From Acidobacteriota bacterium (lineage in GTDB: Bacteria > Acidobacteriota > Terriglobia > Bryobacterales > Bryobacteraceae), in assembly GCA_026393985.1 (NCBI GenBank), contig JAPKZB010000084.1, positions 8,215-72,214 of the forward strand: DNA of 64,000 bases, read 5' to 3'. The notes under the pieces were generated by a model. It saw nothing but the letters and a program-made list of their open reading frames with translations, was not told where the DNA came from and searched no databases. A program made the position numbers and the translations under genes. Each line of letters opens with the position of its first letter. Within the stretch, counting starts at the first letter, position 1. Shown in pieces: positions 6,244-38,898 of this stretch.

Positions 6244-6277
6244 AGCAGTGCCGGACTCCTTGTAGACGGCGACAACG

Positions 6278-7666: not shown

Positions 7667-7679
7667 CGAATTGGCCTCA

Positions 7680-9359: not shown

Positions 9360-9379
9360 CAATGTGCAATCCGCGAGGG

Positions 9380-10369: not shown

Positions 10370-10400
10370 AAATAACTTCCTTTCGCCCCGAAACGGGCCG

Positions 10401-13700: not shown

Positions 13701-14542
13701 GCCCCGCTCCGGCGCGCCACCAGCAGCCAGGCCGAAGAGGGATCCTCCACTCTTGGCGCCCAAATCCCCATGGACCCCAGGGCCAGAACCGCCGGATACG
13801 CCAGCGCCCGCGCTAACGGGTTGCCGTCCGTGGCAATGGCCAACTGCTTGGCCAGCGTGGCCAACCGGCCGATCACGGGAAACAAACCATACGCTCCGGG
13901 CACGGCGATCTCAAAACCCTGATAGCGGCACAACTCGATCAAATGGTGCCGCGAAAAGCCCCAGTCGTTGGTCAGTGGCGGCAGCCATTCCGCCGCGGGA
14001 ATCGCCTCCGGCTCCCTCGGCCCGTACAGCAAGAGCGTCCCCCCGGGCGCCAGCCATTCGGCGAACCGGCCGAACAGCTCCTCACTTTTCCCTACCCGGG
14101 CCAGATAGTGCGCCGAGGCGATCGACAACAAAACATCAAATCGTTCGGGCGGGTCGTAGTCAAGAAATCCCGCCGTCTCGAAAGTGACATTCTCCAGCCC
14201 CAACCGGCGGCCCCGGACCTGCGCCTCGGCGATCGACCGTTCGTCCTGATCGATGCCGAAAATCTTCCATTGGGGACGCCGCGCCGCCAGTTCGAGCGTC
14301 CACCGGCCGGTCCCACAGCCAGCGTCCAGCACGCGCAACCCGCGCCGGGGCAGTCCGCCCAGCAGCGGCCGCAACAGCCCCCACTTTTGGCGGGTATGGA
14401 TATCCAAAAAGCCAAAAGAGGACTGTAACCACCCCTGCGAGCCGGACTGCAGCGCGGCCTCCGCCCGGCCCATCGCCCGCGGCAGATCAGAATGGGCCGC
14501 GGCATCGAGACGAAACGGAACCGCTTTGAGTTTGGAGATCAT
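13697..14542 (-). CDS. Class I SAM-dependent methyltransferase
   Basis: About 281 residues. Motif I is RVLDAGCGTGRWTLE (around residue 85) and the post-strand acidic residue lies in FGIDQDE; FDVLLSIASAHYL and LAPGGTLLLYGP complete the fold. The domain is of the Methyltransf_11/12/25 kind found in sugar O-methylation or chain-capping roles. Both ends use ATGA overlaps (14539-14542 and 13697-13700), so it is translated together with the ligase-like gene before it and the deacetylase after it. The acceptor is not identifiable. Confidence 0.82.
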   Translation of the reverse strand: MISKLKAVPFRLDAAAHSDLPRAMGRAEAALQSGSQGWLQSSFGFLDIHTRQKWGLLRPLLGGLPRRGLRVLDAGCGTGRWTLELAARRPQWKIFGIDQDERSIAEAQVRGRRLGLENVTFETAGFLDYDPPERFDVLLSIASAHYLARVGKSEELFGRFAEWLAPGGTLLLYGPREPEAIPAAEWLPPLTNDWGFSRHHLIELCRYQGFEIAVPGAYGLFPVIGRLATLAKQLAIATDGNPLARALAYPAVLALGSMGIWAPRVEDPSSAWLLVARRSGA

Positions 14543-24735: not shown

Positions 24736-25702
24736 GCTCTTCCCCTTGCTGCCCGCTGCCCTGCGCCGTAATCCAGCGCGCGACCTTTCCGGCCAGAAAC
24801 ACTTCCGTTCGTTCCATCGAGCTCCCGGTGCAGCCCCCGATATGCGGCGTCAGCAGCAGGTTCCCGTGCTCCCGCGCATAAACCAGCAGCGGGTGATTCA
24901 CCCCCACGGCGTGTTCGTCCGCCAACACGTCCAACGCCGCCCCGGCCAGCCGCCCGCCCCGTAAGGCCGCCAGCAGCGCCTCCTCCCGGATCACCTCCCC
25001 GCGCGAGGTGTTCACCAGCCGTGCCCCCGGGCGCATTGCGGCAAACTGCGCCGGCCCCATCAGGCCCGTCGTCTCCTCCGTCAAACTCACATGCAAACTC
25101 AAAAGCTCCGCCCTCGCCAGTAGCTCATCCATCGAAACCAGCCGCACGTTCGGTGGAACCGCCGCCCGCTCCACATACGGGTCGCAAGCCACCACCTCGG
25201 CCTCGAACGCCTCCAGGTACCGGGCCACCAATTGACCCAGCCGCCCCAGTCCCACCAGGCCCACCGTGCTGCCGTACAACTCCCGGCCCCGAAACCGGTC
25301 GCGGTCCCACTTCCCGGTAGGGCCCTGCGCCAGGGCCCCCGGCAGGTCTCGCAGCAGCGCCAACAGCAAGCCGATCGTCAACTCGGCCGTGGCCCGCACC
25401 GAGCGCAAAAATTCCGTCTCCCCTCGCAAACTCAACACCGCGATGCTGCGCCGCTCCGCTTCCTGCAGGTCGATATGGGTCAACCCGGTTGTCGGAGTGG
25501 CCACCGCCCGCAGCGTCGGCGCCGCCGCCATCAGCTCCCGGTCAATCCGGCTCCGCAACCGCACCCAAAGCACCTCATGCCCCGGCAGCAACGCCAGCAG
25601 CGCCGCGCGGTCGGCATCGGCCCAGGTCACCTCGCCAACACCTTCGAGAATCCTCGCCGCGGCCGCCGAAAACTCAGCCGGCTCGGCCACTAGAATGCGC
25701 AT
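24704..25702 (-). CDS. D-isomer 2-hydroxyacid dehydrogenase (phosphoglycerate-dehydrogenase-like)
   Basis: About 332 residues. The NAD-binding motif is VGLVGLGRLGQLVARYL (about 150), with the catalytic Arg in the NTSRGEVI block, Glu in the VLADE region and His in LLTPHIGGCT. The catalytic triad therefore appears complete. There is no C-terminal ACT domain, unlike long SerA forms. It could oxidise or reduce a 2-hydroxyacid used as a glycan substituent; its neighbourhood with NeuA and AsnB argues against general serine synthesis. Its ends overlap both neighbours by about 30 nt. Confidence 0.85.
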   Translation of the reverse strand: MRILVAEPAEFSAAAARILEGVGEVTWADADRAALLALLPGHEVLWVRLRSRIDRELMAAAPTLRAVATPTTGLTHIDLQEAERRSIAVLSLRGETEFLRSVRATAELTIGLLLALLRDLPGALAQGPTGKWDRDRFRGRELYGSTVGLVGLGRLGQLVARYLEAFEAEVVACDPYVERAAVPPNVRLVSMDELLARAELLSLHVSLTEETTGLMGPAQFAAMRPGARLVNTSRGEVIREEALLAALRGGRLAGAALDVLADEHAVGVNHPLLVYAREHGNLLLTPHIGGCTGSSMERTEVFLAGKVARWITAQGSGQQGEEHVRNRGNVWG

Positions 25703-26408
25703 GATCAACCGCCTCGGCCAGCAGAAACTCCGCCCAACGGAGGTCAAACAGATCGTCCACGTTGCACGACCGCTCGGCCGGCATCAGCCAGGCCTGGCAC
25801 CGGGCCCCTTTGAGCGAATTCCGCTCCATCAACACGTCATGGCGGGTCAGATAAATCGATCCGTCGCGCAGATAGAGAGGCGGCAGTTGCTGCCGCGGTT
25901 GCCCCTCAAAGTGCTCGCCAAAGGGGAGATCCTCCACCCAGCCCTCCCCGTCAATACTCTTCATCCGCGCCGGGTGCCTCTCGCCCACCGGCGTAAACGA
26001 AATCACCGAATCGGCCTGCGTCCGCTCGAGCAACGCGATCGCACCGTCAATGTCCGTATCCCGCCGCAGCGGGTTGGTCGGCTGCAGGACGAGGATCGCA
26101 TCGTAGCGCTCTCCGCGCTCCTCAAGAAACCGCACCATGTGCTGCACCACCGGAATCGTCGGCGTCTCGTCCCGCGCCAACTCCGCCGGGCGCAGCACCG
26201 GCACGGCCAACCCCAACAACTCGCCCATCCGCGCAATCTCCCGGTCATCGGTCGAAAGCACCACCCGCGACAATCGCTGCGCCCGCAGCGCCGCCTCCGC
26301 CGTGTAAGCCAGCAGCGGCCGGCCCCCCACCGGTACAAGATTCTTCCGCGGAATCCCTTTCGAACCGCCTCGCGCGGTCACCACCCCCAACACCGAAAGC
26401 ATACCCAT
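25674..26408 (-). CDS. neuA: CMP-nonulosonic acid synthetase (NeuA/LegF-like cytidylyltransferase)
   Basis: About 244 residues, the size of single-domain cytidylyltransferases. The signature ARGGSKGIPRKNLVPVGGRP lies at the N-terminus, followed by LQPTNPLRRDTDID and DGSIYLTRHD. The enzyme would couple CTP to a sialic-, legionaminic- or pseudaminic-type acid, giving the CMP-activated donor. With NeuB (33231) and NeuC (27278) it completes a nonulosonate core pathway. A GGGGAG site about 9 nt before the ATG at 26408 sets the start. Confidence 0.88.
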   Translation of the reverse strand: MGMLSVLGVVTARGGSKGIPRKNLVPVGGRPLLAYTAEAALRAQRLSRVVLSTDDREIARMGELLGLAVPVLRPAELARDETPTIPVVQHMVRFLEERGERYDAILVLQPTNPLRRDTDIDGAIALLERTQADSVISFTPVGERHPARMKSIDGEGWVEDLPFGEHFEGQPRQQLPPLYLRDGSIYLTRHDVLMERNSLKGARCQAWLMPAERSCNVDDLFDLRWAEFLLAEAVDHAHSSGRAG

Positions 26409-26421
26409 CGCGTCACTCCCC

Positions 26422-27267
26422 CTACACAATCGAACCGGCCCTCGGCCGCCAGCGCGCCTGCAGCGGGATGCTCTTGATGTAGCCGTAGAGCAGAATCTCC
26501 CGCACCGCCAACCGCACCGCCGCTTGCGGCGCGCTGATCAACAGCGCCTTCAGAAGCTTCGGCAGCGTCGGTCGCGGAATCGGCCACGTCTCCCCCGTGC
26601 TCCGCAGAATCGCCCGCCGCTCCCGCGTCATTATCTGGATCGCCTCCACCATCCCCCGGCGCCGCATATGCAGATACATCGCCTCGGAGCTCACCACAAT
26701 GTAGCCGCGCTTCATCACCTCGCGCGCCCACAGCTTGTCCTCCACCGCCTCGAGCGTCTCATCAAACGGCACCTCTTCCCACAGACTGCGGCGAATCGCG
26801 CAACCGCTCGCAATGGGACCGTTCTCCACAATCGTGTACAAATCCAGCGGCCACCGCAGCACCTTCTGCTGCGTCCAGGACTCCAAGTCCCTGGTCTTGC
26901 TCACGATCGTGCAACGCACAGCCGCCACCTCCGGGTTGGCGAACTCCACCAGCGCCGTGCGGAAAAATTCCCGGCCCAGCACCAGGCTGTGCGAGCTGAT
27001 GCAGAACACCACCTCCCCCGTGCACTCCCGCAGACCCATGTTCAGCGCCCGGCCGTAAGTGAAGTCACTCTTGGCAATCGGCACCACGCGGGCCCCGTAG
27101 CGCTCGGCAATCTCGCCGCTCCCGTCGGTGGACTCGTTATCCACCACCACGACCTCCCGCGGCTGCACCGATTGCAGCGTTAAGGCATCGAGCACCTTAC
27201 CGAGATACCCCGCCGCATTACGCGCACGGATGACAACAGAAAAGCTTGGCAAGTTCTGCGTGTTCAC
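26422..27267 (-). CDS. Glycosyltransferase family 2
   Basis: 281 residues with an intact GT-A front: FSVVIRARNAAGYLGKVLDA, VVVDNESTDGSGEI and an FCISSHSLVLG block in the DXD region, followed by an EAVEDKLWAREVMKRGY motif typical of processive or rhamnosyl-type GT2 enzymes. No membrane helix is evident. The start is GTG, supported by AGGAGAG 6-8 nt upstream. It sits between NeuC and NeuA and could transfer the nonulosonate or its partner sugar, but known sialyltransferases belong to other families, so this is a guess. Confidence 0.82.
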   Translation of the reverse strand: MNTQNLPSFSVVIRARNAAGYLGKVLDALTLQSVQPREVVVVDNESTDGSGEIAERYGARVVPIAKSDFTYGRALNMGLRECTGEVVFCISSHSLVLGREFFRTALVEFANPEVAAVRCTIVSKTRDLESWTQQKVLRWPLDLYTIVENGPIASGCAIRRSLWEEVPFDETLEAVEDKLWAREVMKRGYIVVSSEAMYLHMRRRGMVEAIQIMTRERRAILRSTGETWPIPRPTLPKLLKALLISAPQAAVRLAVREILLYGYIKSIPLQARWRPRAGSIV

Positions 27268-27277
27268 AAACTCTCTC

Positions 27278-28513
27278 CTACCGGTTTAAAAAGCTGCTGC
27301 GCAAAGCCATGTCGCCCGACGCCTCCGCACGCGCCCCGGCGCCCGCCGGAACGTCGTAGATATAGTGCAAACGCTTCTGCACAAACGGCGTCAGACTCAC
27401 AAGCGACTCCGCAATCCGCCCCGCCACGCGCCCGTCGCCGTACAACTGGCTCGGACCATACCGACCATGGGCCAGTTGCCGCCCCACCATCTCCGCCACC
27501 TCTCCGGCCAGCGGCGACGCGTGCACCACGTGCTCATCGGTCTCCCGCCCCTCCTGCCGCTCACCCACCAGCACCACCGGCGTCCCGAAATAGCCCGCAT
27601 CGCGCACAAAGCTGCTCGAGTTCCCCACCGCGCACGCCGCCCGGCTCAACACCGCCAGGTACTCCTCCGGCATCAGATTCGTAATCGTCCGCAGCCACGC
27701 CGGCGCCGTTTGATCGCGGAACACCCGGATCGACTTGCTGATTTGCTCACTGCCAGCGTCAATGTTCGGCCACAGCAACACCGTCGGCATCGCCATCCGC
27801 CCCAGCGCTTCCAATAGCTCACTCATCTGCTGCAACTCGCCGCCAAAGCACGTCGTCGTCGGATGAAAAATCACCAGCAAGAACGGCTTCTCCGTATCAA
27901 GCCAGGCCCCGCTTCCCGAGGCGTTCACGATATCCGCGCTCATCGACCGGTCCATCTGCCGAGCAATATCGCTCCCCGGACATCCCACGCCCAGAATGCA
28001 CTCCGGCCGCTCCCCCATCCGCACTAGATACTCGGCCGACCGCAGCGTGCTCGGAAAATGAAACTGCGACAGCTTGCTGATCGCATGGCGCGCGCTCTCA
28101 TCAATCGAACCCGACACCTCCCCACCCTGGATATGAAACAGGCAGATGTTCATGTACGCCGCCGCAATCGCCGCCGAAAGCGCCTCGTAGCGATCCCCGA
28201 TCAGCAACACCAGATCCGGCTGCAAACGCTGAAACTCACTCGCAAACTCCACCACCCCGATCCCCACCGATTTCGCCATCGTCGACGGCCGCGAACCTTC
28301 GAGTTCAATGTGAATCTCCCCGTCCACCGGAAAGCCATCCTGCCGCACAATCGCCACCGGATAGCCAAACCGTTCGAGCACCATCGTCCCCGCCGCCACC
28401 ACTACCATCTCCAACTCCGGCCGCGCCGCAATCGCTGCCATCACCGGCTTCATCCGGCCATAGTTAGCCCGGTCCACCAGCACCACACATACTCTTCTGC
28501 GCTTCATCGCCAT
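27278..28513 (-). CDS. neuC: UDP-N-acetylglucosamine 2-epimerase, hydrolysing (NeuC/LegG-like)
   Basis: About 411 residues. The family is shown by LVDRANYGRMKPVMAAI at the N-terminus, LLIGDRYEALSAA, the GEVSGSIDESARHAISKLS block and GNSSSFVRDAGYFGTPVV. Hydrolysing forms release the free 2-epimerised sugar (ManNAc or a 6-deoxy-diacetamido analogue), the substrate of NeuB. Because PglF-like and LegC-like genes are also present, a legionaminic-type route is as likely as sialic acid. Several ATGs are available (28543, 28513, 28507); a GGAGG about 10 nt upstream favours 28513. Confidence 0.87.
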   Translation of the reverse strand: MAMKRRRVCVVLVDRANYGRMKPVMAAIAARPELEMVVVAAGTMVLERFGYPVAIVRQDGFPVDGEIHIELEGSRPSTMAKSVGIGVVEFASEFQRLQPDLVLLIGDRYEALSAAIAAAYMNICLFHIQGGEVSGSIDESARHAISKLSQFHFPSTLRSAEYLVRMGERPECILGVGCPGSDIARQMDRSMSADIVNASGSGAWLDTEKPFLLVIFHPTTTCFGGELQQMSELLEALGRMAMPTVLLWPNIDAGSEQISKSIRVFRDQTAPAWLRTITNLMPEEYLAVLSRAACAVGNSSSFVRDAGYFGTPVVLVGERQEGRETDEHVVHASPLAGEVAEMVGRQLAHGRYGPSQLYGDGRVAGRIAESLVSLTPFVQKRLHYIYDVPAGAGARAEASGDMALRSSFLNR

Positions 28514-28539
28514 CCTCGCCTTACCTCCTATCGAAGAAT

Positions 28540-29463
28540 TCATACCGCCTGCTTGCAATCCACGCGTTGCAGCGCGTAACAGTCCGCCCCCACCGCATTC
28601 CGCCCCGCCTCGGTGCTGAACGCACAGCAGAAATCAAGTTCCCGCAACTGCCCCACCGCCTCCGCCGTGAAAGAGTCCCGCTTGCCGTACGGGTAGCTGA
28701 ACGGCGTCTGCTGCTGCGGAAACATGCGCAGATCCAGAATCCGCCGGCACTCCTCCAAATCCCGCCGCATCTCCCGCTCTGTCAAAGTCGCCAGCGCCTG
28801 ATGACGATGCGTGTGCCCGCCCAGCATCATTCCCCCCATCTGCATCCGCCGCGCCTCCTCCCAACTCACGTACAACTGCCGGGCAAACGCCGACTCCTCG
28901 CCAAACTCCCCCGCGAAAAGCTCATCCACCACCGCCTCCCGCGCCGCCGCCGCCAGTTGAAAATTAAACCCGTACTTGAACGCCGCCACCTCCGGCCCAT
29001 CCCACGGATACGTCCGTGCCGCCGTCGCCGCATCCACCGCCGGCCACTCCAGGCCCAGGCCCCGCACCCCTGCAAGAAACCGGCGCCGCCACTCGGCAAA
29101 CCCCAACTGCGCCGTCAGAAAGTGGTTCTTGTGCACCGCCGCCACCACCTGCTCTTCCATGCAACCGGTCACCAGAAAAAACAGCCCTTGAATCCCGCGA
29201 TCCACGAGCACCGGCGTCACCTCCCGGTAGTGATCCTTCACCCCATCGTCAAACGTCAACAGGCACAGCGGACGGCGCCCGCGATACTCCCCCCGCAGGA
29301 GCGCCAGCGCCGACTCGAGCGTCGCCATCTCATACCGGCGCCGCAACTCATCCACCTGCCGGCTGAAAGTGTCCGCCTCAAGGAAGTGCAATGCCGGAAA
29401 GGCATTCCCCTCCACCCGCCGTACGTAGTGGTACATCACCACAAGTAGCGTTGGCTGGTTCAT
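28540..29463 (-). CDS. Polysaccharide deacetylase (NodB-homology domain)
   Basis: About 307 residues. The first motif LLTFDDGVKDHY and the metal-binding GGHTHRHQAL are both canonical, so the enzyme should be an active metal-dependent CE4-type deacetylase; FSYPYGKRDSF is the third conserved region. No signal peptide is present, so it may act on cytoplasmic lipid- or nucleotide-linked sugars. A ~90-residue insert lies between the first and second motifs (about 105-215). It follows the GNAT gene by 10 nt. Confidence 0.85.
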   Translation of the reverse strand: MNQPTLLVVMYHYVRRVEGNAFPALHFLEADTFSRQVDELRRRYEMATLESALALLRGEYRGRRPLCLLTFDDGVKDHYREVTPVLVDRGIQGLFFLVTGCMEEQVVAAVHKNHFLTAQLGFAEWRRRFLAGVRGLGLEWPAVDAATAARTYPWDGPEVAAFKYGFNFQLAAAAREAVVDELFAGEFGEESAFARQLYVSWEEARRMQMGGMMLGGHTHRHQALATLTEREMRRDLEECRRILDLRMFPQQQTPFSYPYGKRDSFTAEAVGQLRELDFCCAFSTEAGRNAVGADCYALQRVDCKQAV

Positions 29464-29473
29464 GATCGCTGCC

Positions 29474-30640
29474 TCAATTCGGACGGTCCTGATCGGAATC
29501 CGCCTTGGTCCAGTACCACGGACATGCGGCGCCCGCCACGCAAGCCGGCCGGTCAAACTGCACCAGCATCGCGCTCATGATGCCGCCGCCCTTGCCATCA
29601 ATTGGCTGAAAGCGGCTCGGTAGCGCTCCCCCATCCCCCACCCGCGACACCGGTATCATCCCGCCGTCCTCCAGGCGCTCGCCCGTCGGGCCATGGTAGC
29701 CGTAGTAGTCAGCCCCCAGCGCCCCGGCGCTCTCGGCCTGCTCCAGGAATGCCGCCAGCAATGGCTGTGCGTTCGCCGCCGATGCCGGCAGAAACTCCAC
29801 CAGCCGAGCCATCCGGTCCACCGGCGCCCGCCCCTGGCCCGTCTCCTGGTAAATCGTCTCCAACCGCCAGATCGCCAAACCCGTCCGCCCGCCCTCCGGC
29901 ACCGTCACCACGCGATACGAAAACAGCGGATGATCGAGATAACGCCAGCGGAGAAACGCCGCGTCGCGGGCCGCGCCCAGCGTCTCCTGCGCAATCACCG
30001 GCCAATTCTTCTCGTCCCACTCCACCGGGTCAAACTGCGTCCCCGCGCCGATGGGCGCCTCCGCCACCGCCGGCAGGGAAAACGCCGCGGCCAGCGAGGC
30101 CGCCCGGTCCTGCTCCCAATCCGGATGCGCCAGTGCCACCAGATGGGCCATCCGCCCGGCCGCGCCCGGAAACACGGCCAAATGCCGCGGAATATCCGCC
30201 AGCACCTCGCCCCGCAAAACCCGATAGATCGCCGCCGTCGCCGGGTTGATTCCGAAGGCAACCGTAATGTCGTACTCATGGCCTTCCCGCCCCGTCGCGC
30301 CCCGGAACATACTCAGCAGTTGCAGCGCCGTCGATCCCTTGCGATGATCCGGCCGGACGACGTAGTTCGTAATCCATACCCCCTGCTTGCGCTCCCCAAA
30401 GTAGTTAAACGGAAACGGGATACCACCCAGAATCCCCACCAGCTCCCCCTCGTGCTCGGCCACGGCCATGCTGCTCGGCCCCCTCCCCGCCTCGCGGCCT
30501 ACCGCTCCCGTCCGGCCGAACGACCAACGGTACAGGTCCTCTCGCCGGCAGTAAATGTGGTTCGGCGCCCAGTAGTCATTTAGAAATTGGCTCACCGCGG
30601 GATATTCTGCGAGACCGGCATAACGAAACGAAACGCTCAT
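29474..30640 (-). CDS. GNAT-family acyltransferase-like protein
   Basis: 388 residues. The N-terminal ~160 residues look like a GNAT domain: MAVAEHEGELVGILGGI, an acyl-donor-binding VVRPDHRKGSTALQLLSMF and a FGINPATAAIYRVL block (the usual Asn/Tyr region). The C-terminal half resembles the second GNAT-like lobe of larger acyltransferases. Placed 3 nt after an acyl carrier protein gene and beside FkbH and MaoC genes, it is the best candidate to move an ACP-bound acyl group onto a sugar amine. It could also supply the LegH/PglD acetyltransferase step otherwise missing here. Confidence 0.65.
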   Translation of the reverse strand: MSVSFRYAGLAEYPAVSQFLNDYWAPNHIYCRREDLYRWSFGRTGAVGREAGRGPSSMAVAEHEGELVGILGGIPFPFNYFGERKQGVWITNYVVRPDHRKGSTALQLLSMFRGATGREGHEYDITVAFGINPATAAIYRVLRGEVLADIPRHLAVFPGAAGRMAHLVALAHPDWEQDRAASLAAAFSLPAVAEAPIGAGTQFDPVEWDEKNWPVIAQETLGAARDAAFLRWRYLDHPLFSYRVVTVPEGGRTGLAIWRLETIYQETGQGRAPVDRMARLVEFLPASAANAQPLLAAFLEQAESAGALGADYYGYHGPTGERLEDGGMIPVSRVGDGGALPSRFQPIDGKGGGIMSAMLVQFDRPACVAGAACPWYWTKADSDQDRPN

Positions 30641-30643
30641 AAT

Positions 30644-30961
30644 TCATCTCTCCAATGACTTTTCTGCCACCACGCTGACGATCTTGGCAATCGACAGCAA
30701 CTCCTCCATCTCCTCGGGCGAGAACTGAATGCTCCACTCCTGCTCCAAGGCCAGCACCAGGCTCAGGTGATTCAACGAATCCCAGGACGCTATCGACTCC
30801 GGCGAACTCTCCGCCGTCAGCCCGTCCAACGGCACCGCAAAGATATCCGCCGCGATCTGCCGGACCCTGTCCGTCAACGCACGCCAGTCGTCCTGGTCGA
30901 ACCGCTCCAGTGGCCCCTGCTCCAAAGGCCCCAGCTCAAGACGCGATCGATTCCCCATCAT
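30644..30961 (-). CDS. Acyl carrier protein
   Basis: About 105 residues with a four-helix ACP fold and the phosphopantetheine attachment motif SWDSLNHLSLV; Ser62 is the modified residue. An ~20-residue N-terminal extension (LGPLEQGPLERF) is longer than in fatty-acid AcpP. It overlaps the FkbH-like gene by 26 nt and is followed 3 nt later by the GNAT gene, so the three are almost certainly co-translated. Dedicated ACPs of this kind carry glyceryl or hydroxyacyl units rather than serving bulk lipid synthesis. AAAGGA before the tandem ATGs supports the start at 30961. Confidence 0.88.
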   Translation of the reverse strand: MMGNRSRLELGPLEQGPLERFDQDDWRALTDRVRQIAADIFAVPLDGLTAESSPESIASWDSLNHLSLVLALEQEWSIQFSPEEMEELLSIAKIVSVVAEKSLER

Positions 30962-32813
30962 TACCATCCTTTGCCAGCGATGCCCGAATCCAGCGCGGAC
31001 AAGCCAGCGAACAACTTTCGACAGGTAGCCGCCACCGCGTCCCCGCCTCGCCCGCCTCCACCTGCGCAAACTGGTGGTTGGCGTAAAAATCTCTGGCCGG
31101 GCCGTTCTTGGCCGTCGGCACAAACCAGCCCTCGATCCACTGCAAGCTCAGTTGCCGTCCGAACCGCACGAGTAGCGCCATCATCGCGGTCTCCACCGTG
31201 CGTCCGATCACCCGGCAACTCATCAGCATCGTCTCGATGACGCCCACGCCAGCCGTATACCGGAAAACGATTACCCCCACAATGCCGTTATCGCCAAAGC
31301 GGTCCCGCACGGAAACCTCAAACACCCTTGCTCCCTCCCGCCGCGCCAACTCATGGATCTCCGCTTCGCTGTACCGCCGCCCGGTCAGGTTGAACTGATT
31401 GGTCTTCTGCGTCAACTGCGCTACCCGCTGCTCGTGCGCCGGATCCACCAGCGCCATCACCACCTCCTGCCGCAGCGATTCATAAAACTCCTCCACCGTC
31501 CCAAACTGCCGCTGCGCCGTCACCCGCTCCTTCTGCACCCGGTAAAGCTCCCCGCGCGCTTCATCCTCCTGGCTCAGCGCCAGCCGTTCAAAGCCCGGAT
31601 GCCGCCGCACCGTCGCCGCATACGCCGCCGGCTCCCTCGGCAACTCGATCACCGTCACCTCCGGCAACTCCCGCCGCACCCGTTCGCACTCCACCGGACT
31701 GTCATCCAAAAACGCCAGCGCATCCAGCCCCACGTTCAACTCCCCGGCAATCTCCCGCAAATTCTGCGACTTGTCCGTCCAGTTGATCCTTGTGGCGGCA
31801 AACGCGCTGCTGCGCAGCAGCATGCCCGGATGGCTGTCCATCGCCGCCAGCGCCTCCGGTTCATCGTTCTTGCTGCACACCGCCAGCAGAATCCCTCGCC
31901 GCGCAAAGTCTACCAGCGTCTGCTGCAAGGCCCGGTAGTGCGCACCAGGATGCTCAATCCCCACCTGGATCCCCTCCGGCCCATCCTCGCCCAGAACCCC
32001 GCCCCACAACGTGTTGTCCAGATCCGTCACCACCACCTTCACGCCTCGCCCCGCCAGCGGCACCAGGTAACGCAGCCACTCGTTCACCATCACCGGCTGG
32101 CACTCGGCCCGCATCGGCAGCCGCACCAGCAGCCACTTCCGCTCGTCGTGCCACTGCAGCCGCCCATAGTTCGCCACCAGCCGGTCATAGCCCAGCAGGT
32201 ACACCCCCGGCCACCGGCTCACCAACCGCCGCAACCCCTGATTGATCTCCTGCACCGCCGCCGCCTGTCCATCCGGACGTTGCCCGTCCAGCACGCCCCA
32301 ACTTGGATGCACCGGCTCTTCGAGCGCATGAAGAATCAAATCCGCCGGGCTATCGCTCCGCAAGCGCTCCACCAGCGCCGTGAAGTGCCCCAGCACCTCC
32401 GCCACCACCGCCGCAAGCCCCGCGCCCGGCACCCCGTCCTCCCACAACTGAGGCGCAATGTCTCGCGTCTGTACCGCCACAATCACCGTATCCGGCCGGA
32501 ACCGGTACAACCCGCTCTCCCCCTCGAGAACCTCCTGCATGTAAGCGCCCAGCGGACCCACTCCCACCGTCAGCTCCAAACCCACCAAAGCCCCGCCAGC
32601 CCGCAGCAGCGGCACCATCGGCTCCACGGTGAACGAACGCAGAAAGTACACCCGCCACGGCCGGCACGGTAGCGTCTCCCGCCAACGCGCGGCGCACTCC
32701 AAAACATAGTTGGCCACCGCGCCGTTGGGCTGCGCCCGCCACATCGCCTCCGCGGCCGACCGCGCCTCCCCGTAACGCCCCGCCGCCAGCGCCGCCTCAA
32801 TCAACTCACGCAT
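30936..32813 (-). CDS. FkbH-like HAD-IIIC family protein
   Basis: 625 residues, matching full-length FkbH-domain proteins. The N-terminal half (about 1-250) is the SGNH-like or receiver part. The HAD domain starts VVVTDLDNTLWGGVLGEDG (about 256-275) and includes AVCSKND and LDDSPVEC. The C-terminal third (about 470-610) is GNAT-like with TQKTNQFNLTGRRY. Characterised FkbH proteins dephosphorylate 1,3-bisphosphoglycerate and load the glyceryl group onto a partner ACP; the adjacent ACP fits that role. Its use inside a nonulosonate locus suggests an acyl decoration. Confidence 0.85.
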   Translation of the reverse strand: MRELIEAALAAGRYGEARSAAEAMWRAQPNGAVANYVLECAARWRETLPCRPWRVYFLRSFTVEPMVPLLRAGGALVGLELTVGVGPLGAYMQEVLEGESGLYRFRPDTVIVAVQTRDIAPQLWEDGVPGAGLAAVVAEVLGHFTALVERLRSDSPADLILHALEEPVHPSWGVLDGQRPDGQAAAVQEINQGLRRLVSRWPGVYLLGYDRLVANYGRLQWHDERKWLLVRLPMRAECQPVMVNEWLRYLVPLAGRGVKVVVTDLDNTLWGGVLGEDGPEGIQVGIEHPGAHYRALQQTLVDFARRGILLAVCSKNDEPEALAAMDSHPGMLLRSSAFAATRINWTDKSQNLREIAGELNVGLDALAFLDDSPVECERVRRELPEVTVIELPREPAAYAATVRRHPGFERLALSQEDEARGELYRVQKERVTAQRQFGTVEEFYESLRQEVVMALVDPAHEQRVAQLTQKTNQFNLTGRRYSEAEIHELARREGARVFEVSVRDRFGDNGIVGVIVFRYTAGVGVIETMLMSCRVIGRTVETAMMALLVRFGRQLSLQWIEGWFVPTAKNGPARDFYANHQFAQVEAGEAGTRWRLPVESCSLACPRWIRASLAKDGNDGESIAS

Positions 32814-33234
32814 GCCCGCTTTCCCCCGCCAGCTTCACCGTCCCCCGCCCCTCCATCACCGTTGCCCCGTCCTGGTTCGTCGCCCGCACCTCCACCACCA
32901 CGCTCCCCGTCCCCTCGGACTTATGGGCGATCCACAGCCGCAAATTCACCCGGTCGCCCACAAACACCGGAGACCGCCACTGAAATCGCTGCTCGGCCCA
33001 CAACGCCCCCGGCCCCGGCAACTGCATCCCAATCATCGTCGATACGTAACTCCCCACCAACAACCCGTGCACTACTCTCCGGCCAAACTCCGTCTCCCGC
33101 ACAAACGCGTCATCCATGTGCAGCGGATTAAAATCCCCGCTCAACCGCGCAAACGCGTCCACATCCTCGGCGGTAATCACCTTCGACAGCACCGCCTCCT
33201 GCCCCACCGCCAGCCCCTCGAACGTCCCCTTCAT
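32806..33234 (-). CDS. MaoC-like hydratase/dehydratase (hot-dog fold)
   Basis: About 142 residues, single hot-dog domain. The hydratase-2 motif FARLSGDFNPLHMDDAFV contains the expected catalytic Asp and His; HGLLVGSYVS follows. Members hydrate or dehydrate acyl-CoA/ACP thioesters, for example between 3-hydroxybutyryl and crotonyl groups. The ATG overlaps the NeuB stop (ATGA, 33231-33234) and its own stop overlaps the FkbH start by 8 nt, which places it inside the acyl module. Exact substrate unknown. Confidence 0.85.
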   Translation of the reverse strand: MKGTFEGLAVGQEAVLSKVITAEDVDAFARLSGDFNPLHMDDAFVRETEFGRRVVHGLLVGSYVSTMIGMQLPGPGALWAEQRFQWRSPVFVGDRVNLRLWIAHKSEGTGSVVVEVRATNQDGATVMEGRGTVKLAGESGHA

Positions 33235-34277
33235 GACTGCCCCTGTAACTCCCGCATCACCGGCGAGGCAAAATCCTCCTCGGCCAGAAACTGCCCGCGG
33301 GTCACCGCCCGCGCCAACCGCTGCCCCACCACCCGGCCCAGCAAATCCGCCGGCAATCCCGTCCCCGGCTTGCGCAATCCCAGATGCCAGTCGTTCAATA
33401 CCGTTCCCGCCGGCAGATCCGCCTCCGCCACAATGCTCTTCGTAAACAGCCGCCGCACGTCCTGCAGCTCCCGGCAAACCTGGTCTTTATCCACCGGATT
33501 CGCCATCGCCGTCTCCAAAAACCGCACCCCTTCCACCAGCTGCCGCAACTGCTCCGTCGTCAATGAACTCTCCACATCCGGACCGAAGCACTCCCGGCTG
33601 AACGTCAAATGCACCTCCACCACCTCCGCCCCCATCGCCACCGCCGCCAGCGACGGATATATCGTCCCCGAATGGTCCGATAGTCCCACCGCGCATCCAT
33701 ACCGCCGCCGGAACTCCGCCAGGACATTCACCCCCACCTTCTCCGCCGGACACGGATAAACCGAAGTACACTGCAACAGCACATACGGCACCCTCTGCTG
33801 CTCCAACCGTTCCACCGCTCCGTCAATCTCCGGCCACGAACTCATCCCCGTCGAAACATAAATCGGCAACCCGGACTCAGCCATCAACGGAAACAGTTGC
33901 GGGTTACTGATCTCACCGGAAGCCACCTTCCAGGCGTCCACCCCCACCCGCCGCAGTAACTCCACCGCTCGCTTCGAAAACGGTGAGCTCAAAAACCGCA
34001 GGCCCCGGCTGATGGCATGGTCCCGCAGCTCCTTCCACTGCGCCTCGCTGAACTCCATCCGCTGCCAGTACTCATAGCGCGTGGCGTCCTGCCGGCTGAA
34101 GCGAACCCGCCACGTCTCGTAGCTCGAGCTCTCGGCGTCCGCATAGTGCGTCTGAAATTTAATCGCGTCCACGCCCGCCCGCGCGGCCGCTTCAATGTAG
34201 GCATGGGCCGTCCCCAGGCTGCCGTCGTGGGCCTGCGCCACCTCGGCGATCAATAAACACGGTGCGTTACGTTTCAT
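33231..34277 (-). CDS. neuB: Nonulosonic acid synthase (NeuB/LegI-like)
   Basis: 348 residues, the usual length. The TIM-barrel domain opens LLIAEVAQAHDGSL and includes DAIKFQTHYADAESS, RFLSSPFSKRAVELL, WKVASGEISNPQLF and GLSDHSG. The C-terminal antifreeze/SAF domain (about 290-345) has RKPGTGLPADLLG. The enzyme condenses phosphoenolpyruvate with ManNAc or a 6-deoxy analogue. Whether the product is sialic, legionaminic or pseudaminic acid cannot be told by eye. It is followed by an ATGA-coupled MaoC gene. Confidence 0.9.
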   Translation of the reverse strand: MKRNAPCLLIAEVAQAHDGSLGTAHAYIEAAARAGVDAIKFQTHYADAESSSYETWRVRFSRQDATRYEYWQRMEFSEAQWKELRDHAISRGLRFLSSPFSKRAVELLRRVGVDAWKVASGEISNPQLFPLMAESGLPIYVSTGMSSWPEIDGAVERLEQQRVPYVLLQCTSVYPCPAEKVGVNVLAEFRRRYGCAVGLSDHSGTIYPSLAAVAMGAEVVEVHLTFSRECFGPDVESSLTTEQLRQLVEGVRFLETAMANPVDKDQVCRELQDVRRLFTKSIVAEADLPAGTVLNDWHLGLRKPGTGLPADLLGRVVGQRLARAVTRGQFLAEEDFASPVMRELQGQS

Positions 34278-34289
34278 CCGATCTCCGTC

Positions 34290-35129
34290 TTAAACCACAT
34301 CCGCAAAACTCTTCTCCATCCGCCGGAACACAAACGCTCCGCTCACCAGCAACACCAGCGCCACCGCCGCCGAAACCGCCATCATCGGCCCCGGCGCCGT
34401 ATCCGTACCCAGCAGCGCCCACCGGAATCCTTCCACCACCCCCACCATCGGGTTCAACGCGTAAACCGGCCGCCACTCAGGCGGCAGCAAACTGCTCGGG
34501 TACGCAATCGGCGTCACAAACATCCAGAACTGCGTCACAAACGGCACCACGTACTTCACGTCCCGGAACTTCACATTCAGCGCCGAAAGCCACAACCCCA
34601 CCCCCAGCGCCGTCACCAGCGCCAGCACCAGCAGCAGCGGCAGCCACAGCACATGCCAACCCGGGGTCACGCCGTAGTAGAGCATCAGCAGCAGCAGCAC
34701 CAGAAACGCAAGCAGAAAATCCACCATCCCGCTCACCACCGTCCCCACCGGAATCGCCAAACGCGGAAAGTACACCTTCCGGATCAGATTCGCGCTCCCC
34801 ACCAGGCTATCCGACGCCTGGCTCAGGCCCTGGGCAAAAAACGTCCACGGCACCAGCGCGGCATACGCAAACACCGGATAGGGCAACCCGTCCGATTGGA
34901 TCTTCGCCAACCGGCCGAAAAACAGGCTGAACACTACCATCGTGAAAAACGGCTGAATAATCGCCCACGCCGCCCCCAGCGCCGTTTGCTTGTAGCGCAC
35001 CTTGATATCGCGCCAAATCAGAAAGTACAGCAGCTCGCGATACGCGTAGAGCTCTTTCAACTGCAGTGACACCCAGCCTTTGCTCGGCGCAATCCGCAAG
35101 ATCGGAAGAGAAGAAATGGTTTCAGACAA
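34290..35129 (-). CDS. ABC-2 type polysaccharide export permease (Wzm-like)
   Basis: 279 residues with six predicted membrane helices and the amphipathic N-terminus typical of the family (LIWRDIKVRYKQTALGAAWA). The PWTFFAQGLSQASDSLV and ALNVKFRDVKYVVPF segments are conserved in Wzm/TagG permeases. The likely ATPase partner lies at 21692-22978. The start appears to be TTG, 9 nt after AGGAG, overlapping the 3' end of the dehydratase gene by 8 nt. Confidence 0.88.
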   Translation of the reverse strand: MSETISSLPILRIAPSKGWVSLQLKELYAYRELLYFLIWRDIKVRYKQTALGAAWAIIQPFFTMVVFSLFFGRLAKIQSDGLPYPVFAYAALVPWTFFAQGLSQASDSLVGSANLIRKVYFPRLAIPVGTVVSGMVDFLLAFLVLLLLMLYYGVTPGWHVLWLPLLLVLALVTALGVGLWLSALNVKFRDVKYVVPFVTQFWMFVTPIAYPSSLLPPEWRPVYALNPMVGVVEGFRWALLGTDTAPGPMMAVSAAVALVLLVSGAFVFRRMEKSFADVV

Positions 35130-37062
35130 TCGAGACGCTCCTTGAAGACGGATGAACTTGCTGTAACTCGGCCAGAATCTCGCGATACCGGCCGGACGGC
35201 TGATACTCGGGCACCAGGTCCTTCAACAGGCCCAGTAAGTGCCCCTCATCCCGCAGCGTCACCGCCCGCCGCACCTGCCCCACCCACTCGCGCATCTGGC
35301 TCCGCGCCATCCGCCGCCCGCGATAGATCTTGATCTTGTTGTGATGGGTCGGCTGAAAATCCTCGCCCTCCATCGAAAGCTCCTCAAACAGCTTCTCGCC
35401 CGGTCGCAGCCCCGTATACCGGATCTCAATATCTACCCCCGGCGTCTTGCCCGATAGCCGCGCCATGTTCTGCGCCAGATCCAGAATCTTCACCGGCTCA
35501 CCCATGTCCAGAACAAAAATCTCGGCACCCTTGCCCATCGCCGACGCCTGTAGCACCAGTTGTACCGCCTCGGGAATCGTCATGAAGTAACGCTGCATCT
35601 CCGGATGCGTCACCGTAATTGGCCCCCCGGCCGCAATCTGCTTCCGGAACAGCGGAATCACGCTGCCGTTGCTGCCCAGCACGTTGCCGAACCGCACCGC
35701 CACATACTCTGTTTTTCCCTGCAGCCCCGGCTTCGAGGTCACAATCAGCTCCGCCACCCGCTTGGTCAAGCCCATGATATTCGTCGGGTTCACCGCCTTA
35801 TCCGTCGAGATCATCAGAAAACGGGATACGCCATGCCGCGCCGCCGCTTCCACTAAGTTGTAAGTACCGATCACGTTGTTCCGCACCGCTTCAAATAAGT
35901 GACACTCCATCATCGGAACGTGCTTGTAAGCCGCCGCGTGCACAATCACATCCACCTCGTGGTAGCGAATCAACTCCTCCAGCCGCGCCGGATCACAGAT
36001 ATCGGCCACCGCTGGTGCCAACCGCTCCTCGGAGTACCGCTCCAGCAACTCCAGGTGAATCCGAAACAGGTCACTCTCGGCCTGATCAAGCAGCACCAAC
36101 CGCCGCGGATCGTACCCCGCCACCTGCCGGCAGATCTCCGAACCAATCGATCCCCCCGCGCCCGTCACCAGCACGCACCGGCCCTGCAACTGCTCCCGGA
36201 TCATCGCCTCGTCCAGTTCCACCGGCTCCCGCCCCAGCAGATCCACCACCGACACCTCGCGAATCTGACTCGTCAACACCTTACCCGTCAACATTTCCCC
36301 CACCCCGGGTATCGTCTTGAACGGCACCCCCGCCGACCGGCAGTTCGCCACCGCCTCCCGCATCTGCGCCGCCCCCGCCGAAGGCATCGCAATCAAAATC
36401 TCCGCCACCGGACGGTGCGAGCGCCGAGCCATCTCCACAATCAGCGCCGCCTCCCGCCCCGTTCCCAGAACCGTCGCGCCCGCCAGCGTCGCACCCTGCT
36501 TGGCCGGCGAATCATCCAGCAGACCAATCACGTCGTAGCCCAGCGACGGGTTCGACCGGATCTCCTTGGCAATGCTCAATCCCGCCTGCCCCGCGCCGTA
36601 AATCAACATACCCTTCACCGGCCCCTTGGCCTGCCGGTCCCGTCCCAGCCCTTCCCGATACACCCGCACCGAAAAGCGCAGCCCCGCCGTCGCCAGAAAA
36701 CACAACAGAAAGTCGATGACGAAGATCGAACGCGGAAAACCCGGCCCCATCGCCGCCATCGCCGCCGCCGCAAATAGCGCCGACGCCAGCACATTACTTC
36801 CCGCCAGCCGCTGTAAGTCCACAATTCCGGAGTATTGCCACCACCCCCGGTCATGCCGCCGCAGCACAAACACCGGTAACTTCACCACCAGCGCCAGCCA
36901 CAGCACTGCCGTCAACCGCGACGCCTCCTCGGCCGGTACGGTGTACTCAAACCGCAGCAGAAACGCCACCAGGATCGCCCCAACAATCAGCACCCCATGT
37001 AACACCGCAAGCAGAAACTGCCGGTGCGCCAGGACAAACCGCAGCATTCTATTCTTCTTCAT
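35122..37062 (-). CDS. Membrane NDP-sugar 4,6-dehydratase (PglF/CapD/WbpM-like)
   Basis: 646 residues. Four N-terminal membrane helices (about 1-120) precede a first Rossmann domain (about 145-260) and the SDR catalytic domain with VLVTGAGGSIGSEICRQ (about 295-311). The catalytic region ISTDKAVNPTNIMGLTKR has Thr-Asp-Lys and Met in place of the classical SDR Tyr, as in PglF-type UDP-GlcNAc 4,6-dehydratases. It makes the 4-keto-6-deoxy sugar for the adjacent aminotransferase, the first steps towards bacillosamine or legionaminic acid. Confidence 0.9.
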   Translation of the reverse strand: MKKNRMLRFVLAHRQFLLAVLHGVLIVGAILVAFLLRFEYTVPAEEASRLTAVLWLALVVKLPVFVLRRHDRGWWQYSGIVDLQRLAGSNVLASALFAAAAMAAMGPGFPRSIFVIDFLLCFLATAGLRFSVRVYREGLGRDRQAKGPVKGMLIYGAGQAGLSIAKEIRSNPSLGYDVIGLLDDSPAKQGATLAGATVLGTGREAALIVEMARRSHRPVAEILIAMPSAGAAQMREAVANCRSAGVPFKTIPGVGEMLTGKVLTSQIREVSVVDLLGREPVELDEAMIREQLQGRCVLVTGAGGSIGSEICRQVAGYDPRRLVLLDQAESDLFRIHLELLERYSEERLAPAVADICDPARLEELIRYHEVDVIVHAAAYKHVPMMECHLFEAVRNNVIGTYNLVEAAARHGVSRFLMISTDKAVNPTNIMGLTKRVAELIVTSKPGLQGKTEYVAVRFGNVLGSNGSVIPLFRKQIAAGGPITVTHPEMQRYFMTIPEAVQLVLQASAMGKGAEIFVLDMGEPVKILDLAQNMARLSGKTPGVDIEIRYTGLRPGEKLFEELSMEGEDFQPTHHNKIKIYRGRRMARSQMREWVGQVRRAVTLRDEGHLLGLLKDLVPEYQPSGRYREILAELQQVHPSSRSVSIV

Positions 37063-37095
37063 GGTTGCTCTCTCCTCACTACCCGGCCCCGCCGG

Positions 37096-38262
37096 TCAAC
37101 GCCGCCAACGGTCTGCGATATCTTGCACGGCCGCAATCACCCGGTCCACCTGCCCCTCCGTCATTGACGGATACAAAGGCAGCGAAAACATCCGCTCGTA
37201 CAAACCAATCGCCCGCGGGCACGGGTAGGCATCGCCCAGCGCTGCGTACACCGGATGCAGCGGCACCGGAATAAAATGCACGCTGATCCCAATGCCCCGG
37301 TCCCGCAACTCGGCCAGAAACTCGTCCCGCCCAATCTGCAACCGCTCCCGCCGCAACCGCAAAATATACAGGTGCCAGGCGTGCCGCCCACCCACCGCCT
37401 CCGGCGGGCACTCCACCTCCGCCACCGCCGCAAACGCCCGCTGGTAACGCTCGGCCAGCGCCCGCCGCCGCTCCGTGAACCGCTCAATCTTCTTCAACTG
37501 CTCTACGCCAATCGCCGATTGCAGGTCGCTCAGGTTGTATTTGAACCCCGCCTCCAGCACCTGGTAGAACCACGAACCCTTCTCCCCGTAACGGTTCCAC
37601 GCATCCCGGTTCAACCCGTGCAGCGCCAGCGCCTTCATCCGCGCAAACAGCTCCGGCTGGTTGGTCGTCACCATCCCGCCCTCACCCGTTGTCAGGTTCT
37701 TCGTAGCGTAAAAACTGTAAGCCACCGCATCGCTCTCCGACGCCCCGTCAGCACCCAGGTGCTGCCCCCCGTAGTAAGTGCCCACCGCGTGCGCTGCGTC
37801 CTCCACCACAAACAGCTTGTGCCGTCGCGCCAGCTCCCATAACTCGTCCATCCGGCACGGCAGACCCGCCAAATGCACCGGTAGCAGCGCCTTCGTCCGC
37901 GGCGTGATCCGCTCGGCAACCGACGCCGGATCCACGTTACCCGTCTCATCCACATCCGCCAGCACCGGACTCGCCCCCGTGTGCACAATCGCGTGGACCG
38001 TCGAACAGAAAGTCAACGGCGTCGTAATCACCTCATCGCCGGGCCCGACCCCCAGCGCCTCCAGCGCCAAATGCAGCGCCGCCGTACACGAATTCAGCGC
38101 CAGCGCATGCCGCGCCCCCGTGTACCGCTGAAAGTCGCTCTCAAAAGTGGCTGTCCGCGCGCCCGTTGTCAACCACCCGGAACGCATCGTCTCCACCACC
38201 GCCGTAATCTCTTCTTCGCCAATCTCCGGCAGATTGAATGGCAGATACGGAGCATTAAGCAT
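37096..38262 (-). CDS. PLP-dependent sugar aminotransferase (DegT/DnrJ/EryC1; PglE/LegC-like)
   Basis: 388 residues, full length. PLP-binding features: NSCTAALHLALEALG (phosphate cup), VVEDAAHAVGTYY (Asp to the pyridine N) and the Schiff-base Lys in SFYATKNLTTGEGG. The C-terminal HFIPVPLHPVY motif is typical of the group. It would aminate the C4-keto group made by the neighbouring dehydratase, giving a UDP-4-amino-4,6-dideoxy sugar. It begins 9 nt after the phosphoglycosyl transferase stop. Confidence 0.9.
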   Translation of the reverse strand: MLNAPYLPFNLPEIGEEEITAVVETMRSGWLTTGARTATFESDFQRYTGARHALALNSCTAALHLALEALGVGPGDEVITTPLTFCSTVHAIVHTGASPVLADVDETGNVDPASVAERITPRTKALLPVHLAGLPCRMDELWELARRHKLFVVEDAAHAVGTYYGGQHLGADGASESDAVAYSFYATKNLTTGEGGMVTTNQPELFARMKALALHGLNRDAWNRYGEKGSWFYQVLEAGFKYNLSDLQSAIGVEQLKKIERFTERRRALAERYQRAFAAVAEVECPPEAVGGRHAWHLYILRLRRERLQIGRDEFLAELRDRGIGISVHFIPVPLHPVYAALGDAYPCPRAIGLYERMFSLPLYPSMTEGQVDRVIAAVQDIADRWRR

Positions 38263-38271: not shown

Positions 38272-38898
38272 CTACGCGGCCAAACGCCGCAGCACCGTTT
38301 CCGGTGTAAATCCCTTCGGCCACAAGCTGTAGCCAACCGTCAGCACCAGCAGCCGCCAGTCCCGCGCGAGCGACGACAGCTCCAGATAGCGCAGGTTCAA
38401 CCGCAGCTTCTCCGGCAGCACCTGCTCACGGTAGAACCGTTCTGGCTCCTCCGCCTCACCCAGCAACTGCTCCTCGTTGCGGTACACCAGCGTCGCCAGG
38501 TCCGTAATCCCCGGCCGCACGCTCAACACCCGCTGCCAAACCGGGTCCCGCTCATCCACGTACCGCCGCACCTCCGGCCGCGGACCCACCAGACTCATCT
38601 CCCCCCGCAACACGTTCCACAACTGCGGCAACTCATCGAGCTTGTACGCCCGCAGCCACCGCCCCACCTTCGTCACCCGCCCATCCCCCGCCGCCGTAAT
38701 CGCCGGCCCGCTGTTGTCCACCCGCATCGAACGGAACTTCAACAACACAAACGACCGCCCACCCCGCCCCACCCGCACCTGCCGGAACAGCACCGGTCCA
38801 CCATCCCCGCACCGCACGAGGATCGCAATCAACGCCAACAAAGGCGCCAGCGCCACCAGCCCACAGAGGCAGATCATCCGGTCCAGCACGTTCCGCAT
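38272..38898 (-). CDS. Small monotopic phosphoglycosyl transferase (PglC/WcaJ-C-like)
   Basis: 208 residues. One N-terminal hydrophobic (re-entrant) helix is followed by PVLFRQVRVGRGGRSF, LKFRSMRVD and the catalytic Asp-Glu in YKLDELPQLWNVL, then GEMSLVGPRPEV. The short form lacks the extra N-terminal helices of WbaP/WcaJ. It transfers a phospho-sugar, plausibly the diamino-trideoxy product of the two preceding steps, to undecaprenyl phosphate and so initiates repeat-unit assembly. It is the only initiating transferase recognised in the locus. Confidence 0.9.
   Translation of the reverse strand: MRNVLDRMICLCGLVALAPLLALIAILVRCGDGGPVLFRQVRVGRGGRSFVLLKFRSMRVDNSGPAITAAGDGRVTKVGRWLRAYKLDELPQLWNVLRGEMSLVGPRPEVRRYVDERDPVWQRVLSVRPGITDLATLVYRNEEQLLGEAEEPERFYREQVLPEKLRLNLRYLELSSLARDWRLLVLTVGYSLWPKGFTPETVLRRLAA

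Follow-up and report, generated by a model that had tools for sequence, protein, structure and literature searches.

The UDP-linked route to legionaminic acid proceeds through PglF, PglE, and PglD, followed by NeuC, NeuB, and NeuA. FkbH proteins are known from polyketide biosynthesis, where OzmB-type enzymes transfer glyceryl to an acyl carrier protein (ACP), and where the bryostatin loading module (BryA) combines FkbH, dehydratase (DH), ketoreductase (KR), and ACP parts to give a lactyl unit. In tetronate biosynthesis, the FkbH homolog Tmn16 is described as moving glyceryl from 1,3-bisphosphoglycerate onto discrete ACPs (PMC3625739). Glyceryl-type groups are also found on nonulosonates. Campylobacter jejuni NCTC 11168 is reported to make di-O-methylglyceric acid derivatives of pseudaminic acid, which occur on flagellin (PMC4975691, PMC3068675), and its flagellin glycosylation locus includes an FkbH-domain gene, cj1302 (PMC7099621). 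The available text of these reports links the glyceryl derivative to Cj1295, names no acyl-loading enzyme, and does not tie cj1302 to glyceryl (PMC4975691, PMC3068675, PMC7099621). Flagellin islands of Aeromonas are described as combining pseudaminate genes with genes for an ACP and a 3-oxoacyl-ACP reductase (group II), or with genes for a GNAT and an acyl dehydratase (group III) (PMC7874193). Here, we analyze an operon in a stretch of 64,000 nucleotides (hereafter the window) from a Bryobacteraceae genome of Acidobacteriota (contig JAPKZB010000084.1), in which genes for a MaoC-like hydratase, an FkbH protein, an ACP, and a tandem GNAT are embedded among genes for nonulosonate biosynthesis.

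The MaoC, FkbH, ACP, and GNAT genes are interpreted as a cassette for acyl-donor supply and acyl transfer within a legionaminic-like nonulosonate pathway, an interpretation that we consider an even call. In the proposed scheme, the PglF-type dehydratase and the aminotransferase would convert UDP-GlcNAc to UDP-4-amino-4,6-dideoxy-GlcNAc. FkbH would take a glyceryl C3 unit from 1,3-bisphosphoglycerate, drop the phosphate, and load the unit on the ACP, where MaoC may alter it. The tandem GNAT would then transfer the acyl group from the ACP to the 4-amine (which becomes N7), a step for which the standard PglD uses acetyl-CoA. NeuC would epimerize the sugar and remove UDP, NeuB would condense the product with phosphoenolpyruvate, and the cytidylyltransferase would activate it to a CMP-nonulosonate whose N7 bears a hydroxyacyl amide. 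This sugar would be built into a polysaccharide that the ATP-binding cassette (ABC) pair exports. The enzyme families, motifs, gene order, and predicted GNAT fold are features of the sequence itself; from these, we infer which acyl group is used, that the ACP donates it, which amine receives it, and that a single sugar is served by all of the enzymes.

When compared with the described systems, the operon shares with the tetronate clusters (AbyA2/AbyA3 and Tmn16/Tmn7a) an FkbH protein that scores over its cut-off and adjoins an ACP, but it differs in having GNAT and amino-sugar genes, and no ketosynthase was found among the operon genes scanned with family models. With the legionaminic UDP pathway it shares the enzyme families, as 4,6-dehydratase, 4-aminotransferase, hydrolyzing 2-epimerase, NeuB, and CMP synthetase genes are all located within one operon. 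However, no PglD/LegH-like 4-N-acetyltransferase was found among the operon genes; a tandem GNAT and an acyl-ACP block are present instead, and a deacetylase is added. The C. jejuni locus, which was compared by published description rather than by gene order, is similar in having an FkbH-domain gene in a nonulosonate locus, and a glyceryl-type acyl group is reported on its nonulosonate, but its product is a methylated flagellin glycan and not an exported polysaccharide. Aeromonas group II differs in its AMP-dependent synthetase and luxC/luxE genes, and FkbH is unmentioned in the main text of that report (PMC7874193).

The operon is densely packed on the minus strand; it starts with genes for a Wzc-like protein and the priming sugar transferase, continues with the aminotransferase, and runs on through the ABC ATPase. 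An earlier note on this DNA had assigned NeuA-, NeuB-, and NeuC-like enzymes, a PglF-type dehydratase, and an aminotransferase to a single operon. All of these genes are indeed present on this strand, although the cytidylyltransferase lies outside positions 27278–38262 and an ABC-2 permease gene separates PglF from NeuB. The same note had described MaoC, FkbH, ACP, and GNAT as a contiguous, overlapping set between NeuB and NeuC. Overlaps were found between NeuB and MaoC (4 bases), MaoC and FkbH (8 bases), and FkbH and ACP (26 bases), but a gap of 3 bases separates the ACP stop codon from GNAT, and the note had not listed the deacetylase gene that lies before NeuC. Its LegC/PglE-type label for the aminotransferase is not supported with respect to LegC, as the LegC model (TIGR04181) gives 230 of the 420 bits required, and the ArnB (370 of 631 bits) and PseC (369 of 424 bits) models score higher, all below their curated cut-offs. 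NeuB is similarly placed (TIGR03569, 294 bits; cut-off 399.65). Because NeuB, the cytidylyltransferase, and the aminotransferase all fall below curated cut-offs, the nonulosonate class cannot be read from the models alone.

Among the cassette proteins, FkbH scores twofold over its curated cut-off (TIGR01686, 292 vs. 146.65 bits), and its nearest solved structure by sequence is Bacteroides BF1531. In an alignment of 13 sequences, D264, D266, and T268 (DxDxT) and Cys533-Arg534 are invariant. The AlphaFold2 (AF2) model of FkbH (predicted local distance difference test, pLDDT, 87.9) has an N-terminal part and a HAD-IIIC phosphatase core (DLDNT) that are BF1531-like, followed by a C-terminal GNAT-like domain with the invariant Cys; a Foldseek search with this model retrieved 3slr as well as GNATs. 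The ACP is below any curated ACP cut-off (best 33 vs. 71 bits), but it is a small protein with a Ser in a phosphopantetheine-type motif (WDSLNHL), of which WDS is kept in all nine aligned sequences (window plus eight related genomes). For the GNAT protein, no convincing PDB match was found by sequence, and its AF2 model (pLDDT 82.5) is a tandem GNAT with N-myristoyltransferases as the top Foldseek matches (E 5.6e-11, TM about 0.54). The predicted fold is thereby like those of N-myristoyltransferases, which transfer acyl groups from thioesters to amines, and of Eis, another tandem GNAT, but the identity is only 8–13% in the 50 structural alignments listed. The C-terminal end of the window GNAT, WYWTKADSDQDRPN (window 29477–29518), is nearly invariant in nine orthologs and may bind the ACP or the sugar.

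Conservation of the gene order, which the earlier note had put forward as a check, was confirmed in ten loci, namely the window, eight other genomes of the same family, and L113 (a Paludibaculum contig in the named collection). MaoC, ACP, GNAT, and deacetylase are in identical order in all ten, and FkbH is present in nine (absent from G517). NeuB is immediately upstream of MaoC in eight of the ten, and the deacetylase is the next gene after GNAT in 9/9 related loci. As the block is conserved in relatives, chance juxtaposition is very unlikely. The sugar transferase is present in 8/9 related loci, and the contig of the ninth stops before that position. The D-2-hydroxyacid dehydrogenase is found in 8/10 loci (L113 has no match, and in L077 the gene is not visible) and could act in acyl supply or reduction. 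Within the order, GNAT orthologs were found in 9 of 150 genomes (own genome included), all of one family, and the phylum search (297 genomes) added only seven weak matches of 19–35 bits (L064–L070). In G540 and L113, the NeuB slot is empty and a diverged NeuC-NeuA-NeuB set is located downstream (L113) or on another contig (G540); both loci nevertheless retain the acyl block and PglF. The possibility that G540 lacks nonulosonate genes was accordingly rejected. A loss of PglF and the aminotransferase from G466 was also rejected, as both are located downstream on the same contig (717 and 534 bits, respectively).

The distribution of FkbH beyond these relatives was examined in 80 named loci, which rank as the best 80 among 569 confirmed relatives of FkbH and represent near relatives of the window FkbH (L113 included) rather than all FkbH genes. 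Genes in these loci are open reading frames (ORFs), most of them named by phmmer searches that used proteins of the window or of L038 as queries. Only the best query counted for any one ORF, and a MaoC fused to a better-matching short-chain dehydrogenase/reductase (SDR) was counted as a reductase (L113, L118, L119, L121, and L146). An ACP is located within 2.5 kb of FkbH in 64 of these loci and a MaoC within the same distance in at least 14. A sugar-aminotransferase match is present in 15, and NeuB (within about 10 kb) in seven, of which one is L113 and two (L127 and L138) have only 46–47 bits. The density of MaoC is 3.8 per 100 kb near FkbH vs. 0.22 farther away, with 14 of 16 matches near (binomial P about 2e-6, under an assumption of independent positions that does not hold). 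Across the phylum, FkbH was found in 44 of 396 genomes, and 3 of the 20 stretches fetched from this survey contain NeuB (L038, L045, and L046; one of the stretches is an own-genome paralog). The FkbH-ACP-MaoC tandem is also found in four archaeal loci of Nitrosopumilales/Nitrososphaerales type (L125, L127, L134, and L138). These sequence comparisons indicate that FkbH-ACP-MaoC is a general cassette, located mostly away from NeuB, and that its association with nonulosonate genes recurs. L107, which scores best among the named relatives, has matches to both NeuA and NeuB within 10 kb. Locus L038 comes from an acidobacterial family that does not belong to the window's class; there, PseB (535 bits), PseC (518 bits), and PseG (282 bits), all over cut-off, share one operon with MaoC-SDR, FkbH, and ACP; the GNAT beside this ACP is diverged from PseH (35 of 93 bits). 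In L154 (Melioribacter), FkbH-ACP is located between PseH (107 bits) and PseI (506 bits), and these two as well as PseB (520 bits) and PseC (489 bits) are over cut-off, with PseG at 138 of 154 bits. The L038 cluster (2582–18827) further encodes an aldo/keto reductase and a NeuB fused to a cytidylyltransferase, and part of its PseG is formyltransferase-like.

Several observations weigh against the legionaminic-like reading. In addition to the shortfall of the aminotransferase against the LegC model, the window NeuC is closer in PDB to human GNE (234 bits) than to the next match, an N,N'-diacetylbacillosamine (diNAcBac) 2-epimerase (168 bits); for the L113 NeuC, in contrast and in favor of the reading, a diNAcBac 2-epimerase is the nearest match (235 bits vs. 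204 for GNE). The deacetylase adjoining GNAT would be superfluous in the proposed scheme, and the use of the ACP by GNAT is itself something that we infer. G517 keeps MaoC-SDR, ACP, and GNAT without an FkbH ortholog, the only copy (224 bits) being ~22 kb off, and G540 (genome 85% complete) gave no close aminotransferase, its best match having 212 bits. G456 and G460 keep the NeuB-NeuC-NeuA core, but the acyl block is missing from the stretch fetched, which is where FkbH, MaoC, and ACP were sought; the L215 stretch has a diverged FkbH (220 bits) ~6 kb away on the opposite strand. A PglF-like protein is encoded in each of these genomes (629 bits in G456 and 664 bits in G460). In G460, PglF and an adjoining aminotransferase (525 bits) are ~35 kb from NeuB, beside genes read as nonribosomal peptide synthetase (NRPS)/polyketide synthase genes, and G456 has, at another place, a 349-bit aminotransferase near a NeuD/PglB-type acetyltransferase (165 bits, cut-off 161). 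Finally, the own-genus genomes have a PglD-like gene outside the operon. PglD_N passes its cut-off in four of the nine cassette genomes, all of the own genus (own plus three), and in none of the five from other genera, among which G466 has one match just below. The own-genome copy is in a 20-kb stretch without matches to operon genes. This distribution fits a GNAT that stands in for PglD, with the acyl group ending at N7, but also allows a separate acylated amino sugar.

Alternatively, the operon may make two sugars, which we regard as possible, though somewhat unlikely. NeuC, NeuB, and the cytidylyltransferase would then produce a neuraminic-type acid from UDP-GlcNAc, and PglF, the aminotransferase, and FkbH-ACP-GNAT would produce an N-(hydroxyacyl) bacillosamine-like sugar that is lipid-primed by the sugar transferase; or the deacetylase would free an amine that GNAT re-acylates, for which the GNAT-deacetylase order of all nine related loci provides a possible pair. 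The GNE-like NeuC and the arrangements in G456 and G460 favor this explanation, as do the several named loci (e.g., L108) that have FkbH-ACP and a sugar aminotransferase without NeuB. The NeuB-NeuC-NeuA sets of L045 and L046 likewise have no PglF or aminotransferase close by, but these genomes hold PglF-like (447 and 403 bits) and aminotransferase (308 and 297 bits) genes farther away. Moreover, a PglF-like protein is present in all 12 family members examined, although all were chosen for NeuB or GNAT and genomes with PglF but without NeuB were not sought. In L038 and L154, FkbH-ACP is inside pseudaminate sets, in which the PseC amine enters the nonulosonate. NeuB of at least 400 bits was found in 10 of 150 genomes of the order, and 8 of those 10 have GNAT. 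The earlier suggestion that a glyceryl- or hydroxyacyl-ACP acylates a nonulosonate amine is still the best explanation, but the acyl group may go to a separate amino sugar and may be other than glyceryl.

MaoC and its fused reductase may bear on the acyl product. The window motif SGDFNPLH is kept in 9/9 related loci as [ST]GDxN[PA]LH. In eight of these nine, MaoC is fused to a ~250-residue FabG-like SDR; MaoC is alone in the window and in the sister G464. At the position of the catalytic Tyr, the eight fusions have Phe (five), Ala (two), or Val (one; L074, also without Lys). The Tyr is kept in 13/13 aligned FkbH-neighboring SDRs outside the window's family and also, as read by eye, in the fusions of L037, L038, and L044. 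Among FkbH neighbors with MaoC only, L125, L127, and L161 were aligned and have no reductase part, L134, L138, L174, L181, and L183 were left unaligned, and L113 was assessed by motif only. The simple reading of these alignments is that the window's family does not need the reduction, the SDR domain having first decayed and later disappeared from one lineage. A lactyl product formed by an active reductase was rejected for the window, given that the reductase is absent or without Tyr throughout the family. This differs from BryA-type lactyl loading, for which the MaoC motif is present here but a reductase with Tyr is not. Dehydration of glyceryl-ACP by MaoC would give enol-pyruvyl/pyruvyl, which an active reductase would then convert to lactyl. 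A broader hypothesis, tentative and on balance unlikely, is that FkbH-ACP-MaoC-reductase is a mobile bacterial/archaeal cassette that, by the chemistry of the bryostatin loading module, makes a reduced C3 acyl-ACP (glyceryl to pyruvyl to lactyl) from 1,3-bisphosphoglycerate, an intermediate of glycolysis, to N-acylate amino sugars or nonulosonates, and that the window sugar, after decay and deletion of the reductase, bears unreduced pyruvyl or glyceryl. If so, a pyruvyl or glyceryl nonulosonate would be a form that we have not met as described.

It is quite improbable that the acyl group is instead a fatty-acid-type hydroxyacyl, such as 3-hydroxybutyryl, made on the ACP by MaoC (with the reductase in relatives) and with FkbH as an accessory. 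Hydroxybutyryl groups are known on bacterial nonulosonates, the MaoC motif is intact in the relatives, and G517 has the other cassette genes without FkbH. However, this explanation conflicts with the lack of a ketosynthase among the operon genes scanned, the absence of the reductase from the window and of its Tyr from all eight relatives that have it, and the conservation of FkbH (9/10 loci) and its DxDxT motif (13/13 sequences). Still more doubtful is a role of the cassette in something else (e.g., a lipid or secondary metabolite) while only traveling with polysaccharide genes. In its favor, 73 of the best 80 of 569 FkbH loci have no NeuB match and several close relatives of FkbH from other families (L109, L131, L035, and L036) have an ACP and a different protein without NeuB, but the overlapping genes inside the operon, the position of NeuB directly upstream of MaoC in eight of ten loci, and the NeuA and NeuB matches of L107 argue against it.

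The earlier note had also put the set forward as the best candidate for an undescribed pathway in the window. This must be narrowed, as FkbH-ACP(-MaoC) is widespread, mostly without NeuB, and C. jejuni provides a precedent; the C. jejuni cj1302 locus is absent among the best 80 of 569 FkbH loci, the only set in which it was sought. Nonulosonate loci with acyl-carrier genes are already known, and what was not met among the literature matches listed is the arrangement with a tandem GNAT and a decaying MaoC-SDR. In the open-access literature searched, FkbH, nonulosonic acid, and acyl carrier protein were not found together; no FkbH-like protein was found with polysaccharide biosynthesis, no report joined glyceric acid, legionaminic acid, and acyl carrier protein, and nothing was found, by title, on nonulosonate biosynthesis in Acidobacteriota. 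If the legionaminic-like reading is true, polyketide-type acyl loading would be tied to sialic-acid-like sugars in environmental bacteria, and the locus would suggest how glyceryl-type amides on nonulosonates arise. A rule would also follow, whereby FkbH-ACP beside PglF/PseB-type genes, with a GNAT in the place of PglD or PseH, predicts a hydroxyacyl group at N7.

Table 1. Genes of the minus-strand operon in the window and the matches that support their annotation.
Feature	Position	Strand	Evidence
Bacterial sugar transferase (priming phosphoglycosyltransferase)	38272..38898	-	PF02397 183 bits
DegT-family sugar aminotransferase (ArnB/PseC/PglE-like)	37096..38262	-	PF01041 414 bits; best PDB match ArnB
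PglF-type membrane UDP-GlcNAc 4,6-dehydratase	35122..37062	-	PF02719 389 bits + CoA_binding_3
ABC-2 polysaccharide export permease	34290..35129	-	PF01061 90 bits
NeuB-family nonulosonate synthase	33231..34277	-	PF03102 222 bits + SAF; best PDB match N. meningitidis SiaC
MaoC-like hydratase/dehydratase, 142 aa, motif SGDFNPLH	32806..33234	-	PF01575 73 bits
FkbH protein	30936..32813	-	TIGR01686 292 bits
Acyl carrier protein, WDSLNHL site	30644..30961	-	NF002148 33 bits, E 3.2e-8, below cut-off 71
Tandem-GNAT acyltransferase, candidate acyl-ACP:amino-sugar N-acyltransferase	29474..30640	-	PF00583 22.9 bits, cut-off 20.7
Polysaccharide-deacetylase family protein	28540..29463	-	PF01522 68 bits
NeuC-type hydrolyzing UDP-sugar 2-epimerase (longest ORF; start uncertain)	27278..28558	-	TIGR03568 331 bits, cut-off 236
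Family 2 glycosyltransferase	26422..27267	-	PF00535 65 bits
CMP-nonulosonate synthetase (NeuA/PseF-like)	25674..26429	-	PF02348 69 bits; PseF model 131 bits, cut-off 205.7
D-isomer 2-hydroxyacid dehydrogenase (longest ORF; start uncertain)	24704..25747	-	PF02826 167 bits; best NCBIfam PGDH 207 bits, below cut-off
Asparagine-synthase-like amidotransferase	22975..24735	-	TIGR01536 368 bits, over cut-off
ABC exporter ATPase (Wzt/TagH-like; longest ORF, start uncertain)	21692..23275	-	PF00005 71 bits; TagH/Wzt 197/168 bits, below cut-offs

The deacetylase has no obvious signal peptide as read by eye. Around the weak GNAT matches of the phylum search, no acyl block was found in the neighborhoods (L079–L085), which were left out of the other comparisons; five of the seven have an aminotransferase match (L079–L082 and L085; GNAT relatives of 20–36 bits), and L085 additionally has deacetylase- and NeuC-like genes. 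In L035 (8308–11567), L036 (952–4383), L109, L115, and L131, FkbH-ACP is followed by a different protein of ~375 amino acids, which appears to be a sister use of the cassette. No NeuB match was found in the fetched stretches of these five loci, and the L035 protein has no NCBIfam match and no similarity to the window GNAT by BLASTP. Finally, in L045 (5833–14650) and L046 (5124–11894), the gene after NeuB-NeuC-NeuA encodes a long FkbH protein (about 990 residues). The L045 version shows carrier- and thioesterase-like matches, and next to it lies a gene for an adenylation-domain protein of 940 residues, which suggests NRPS-like chemistry linked to a nonulosonate cluster.

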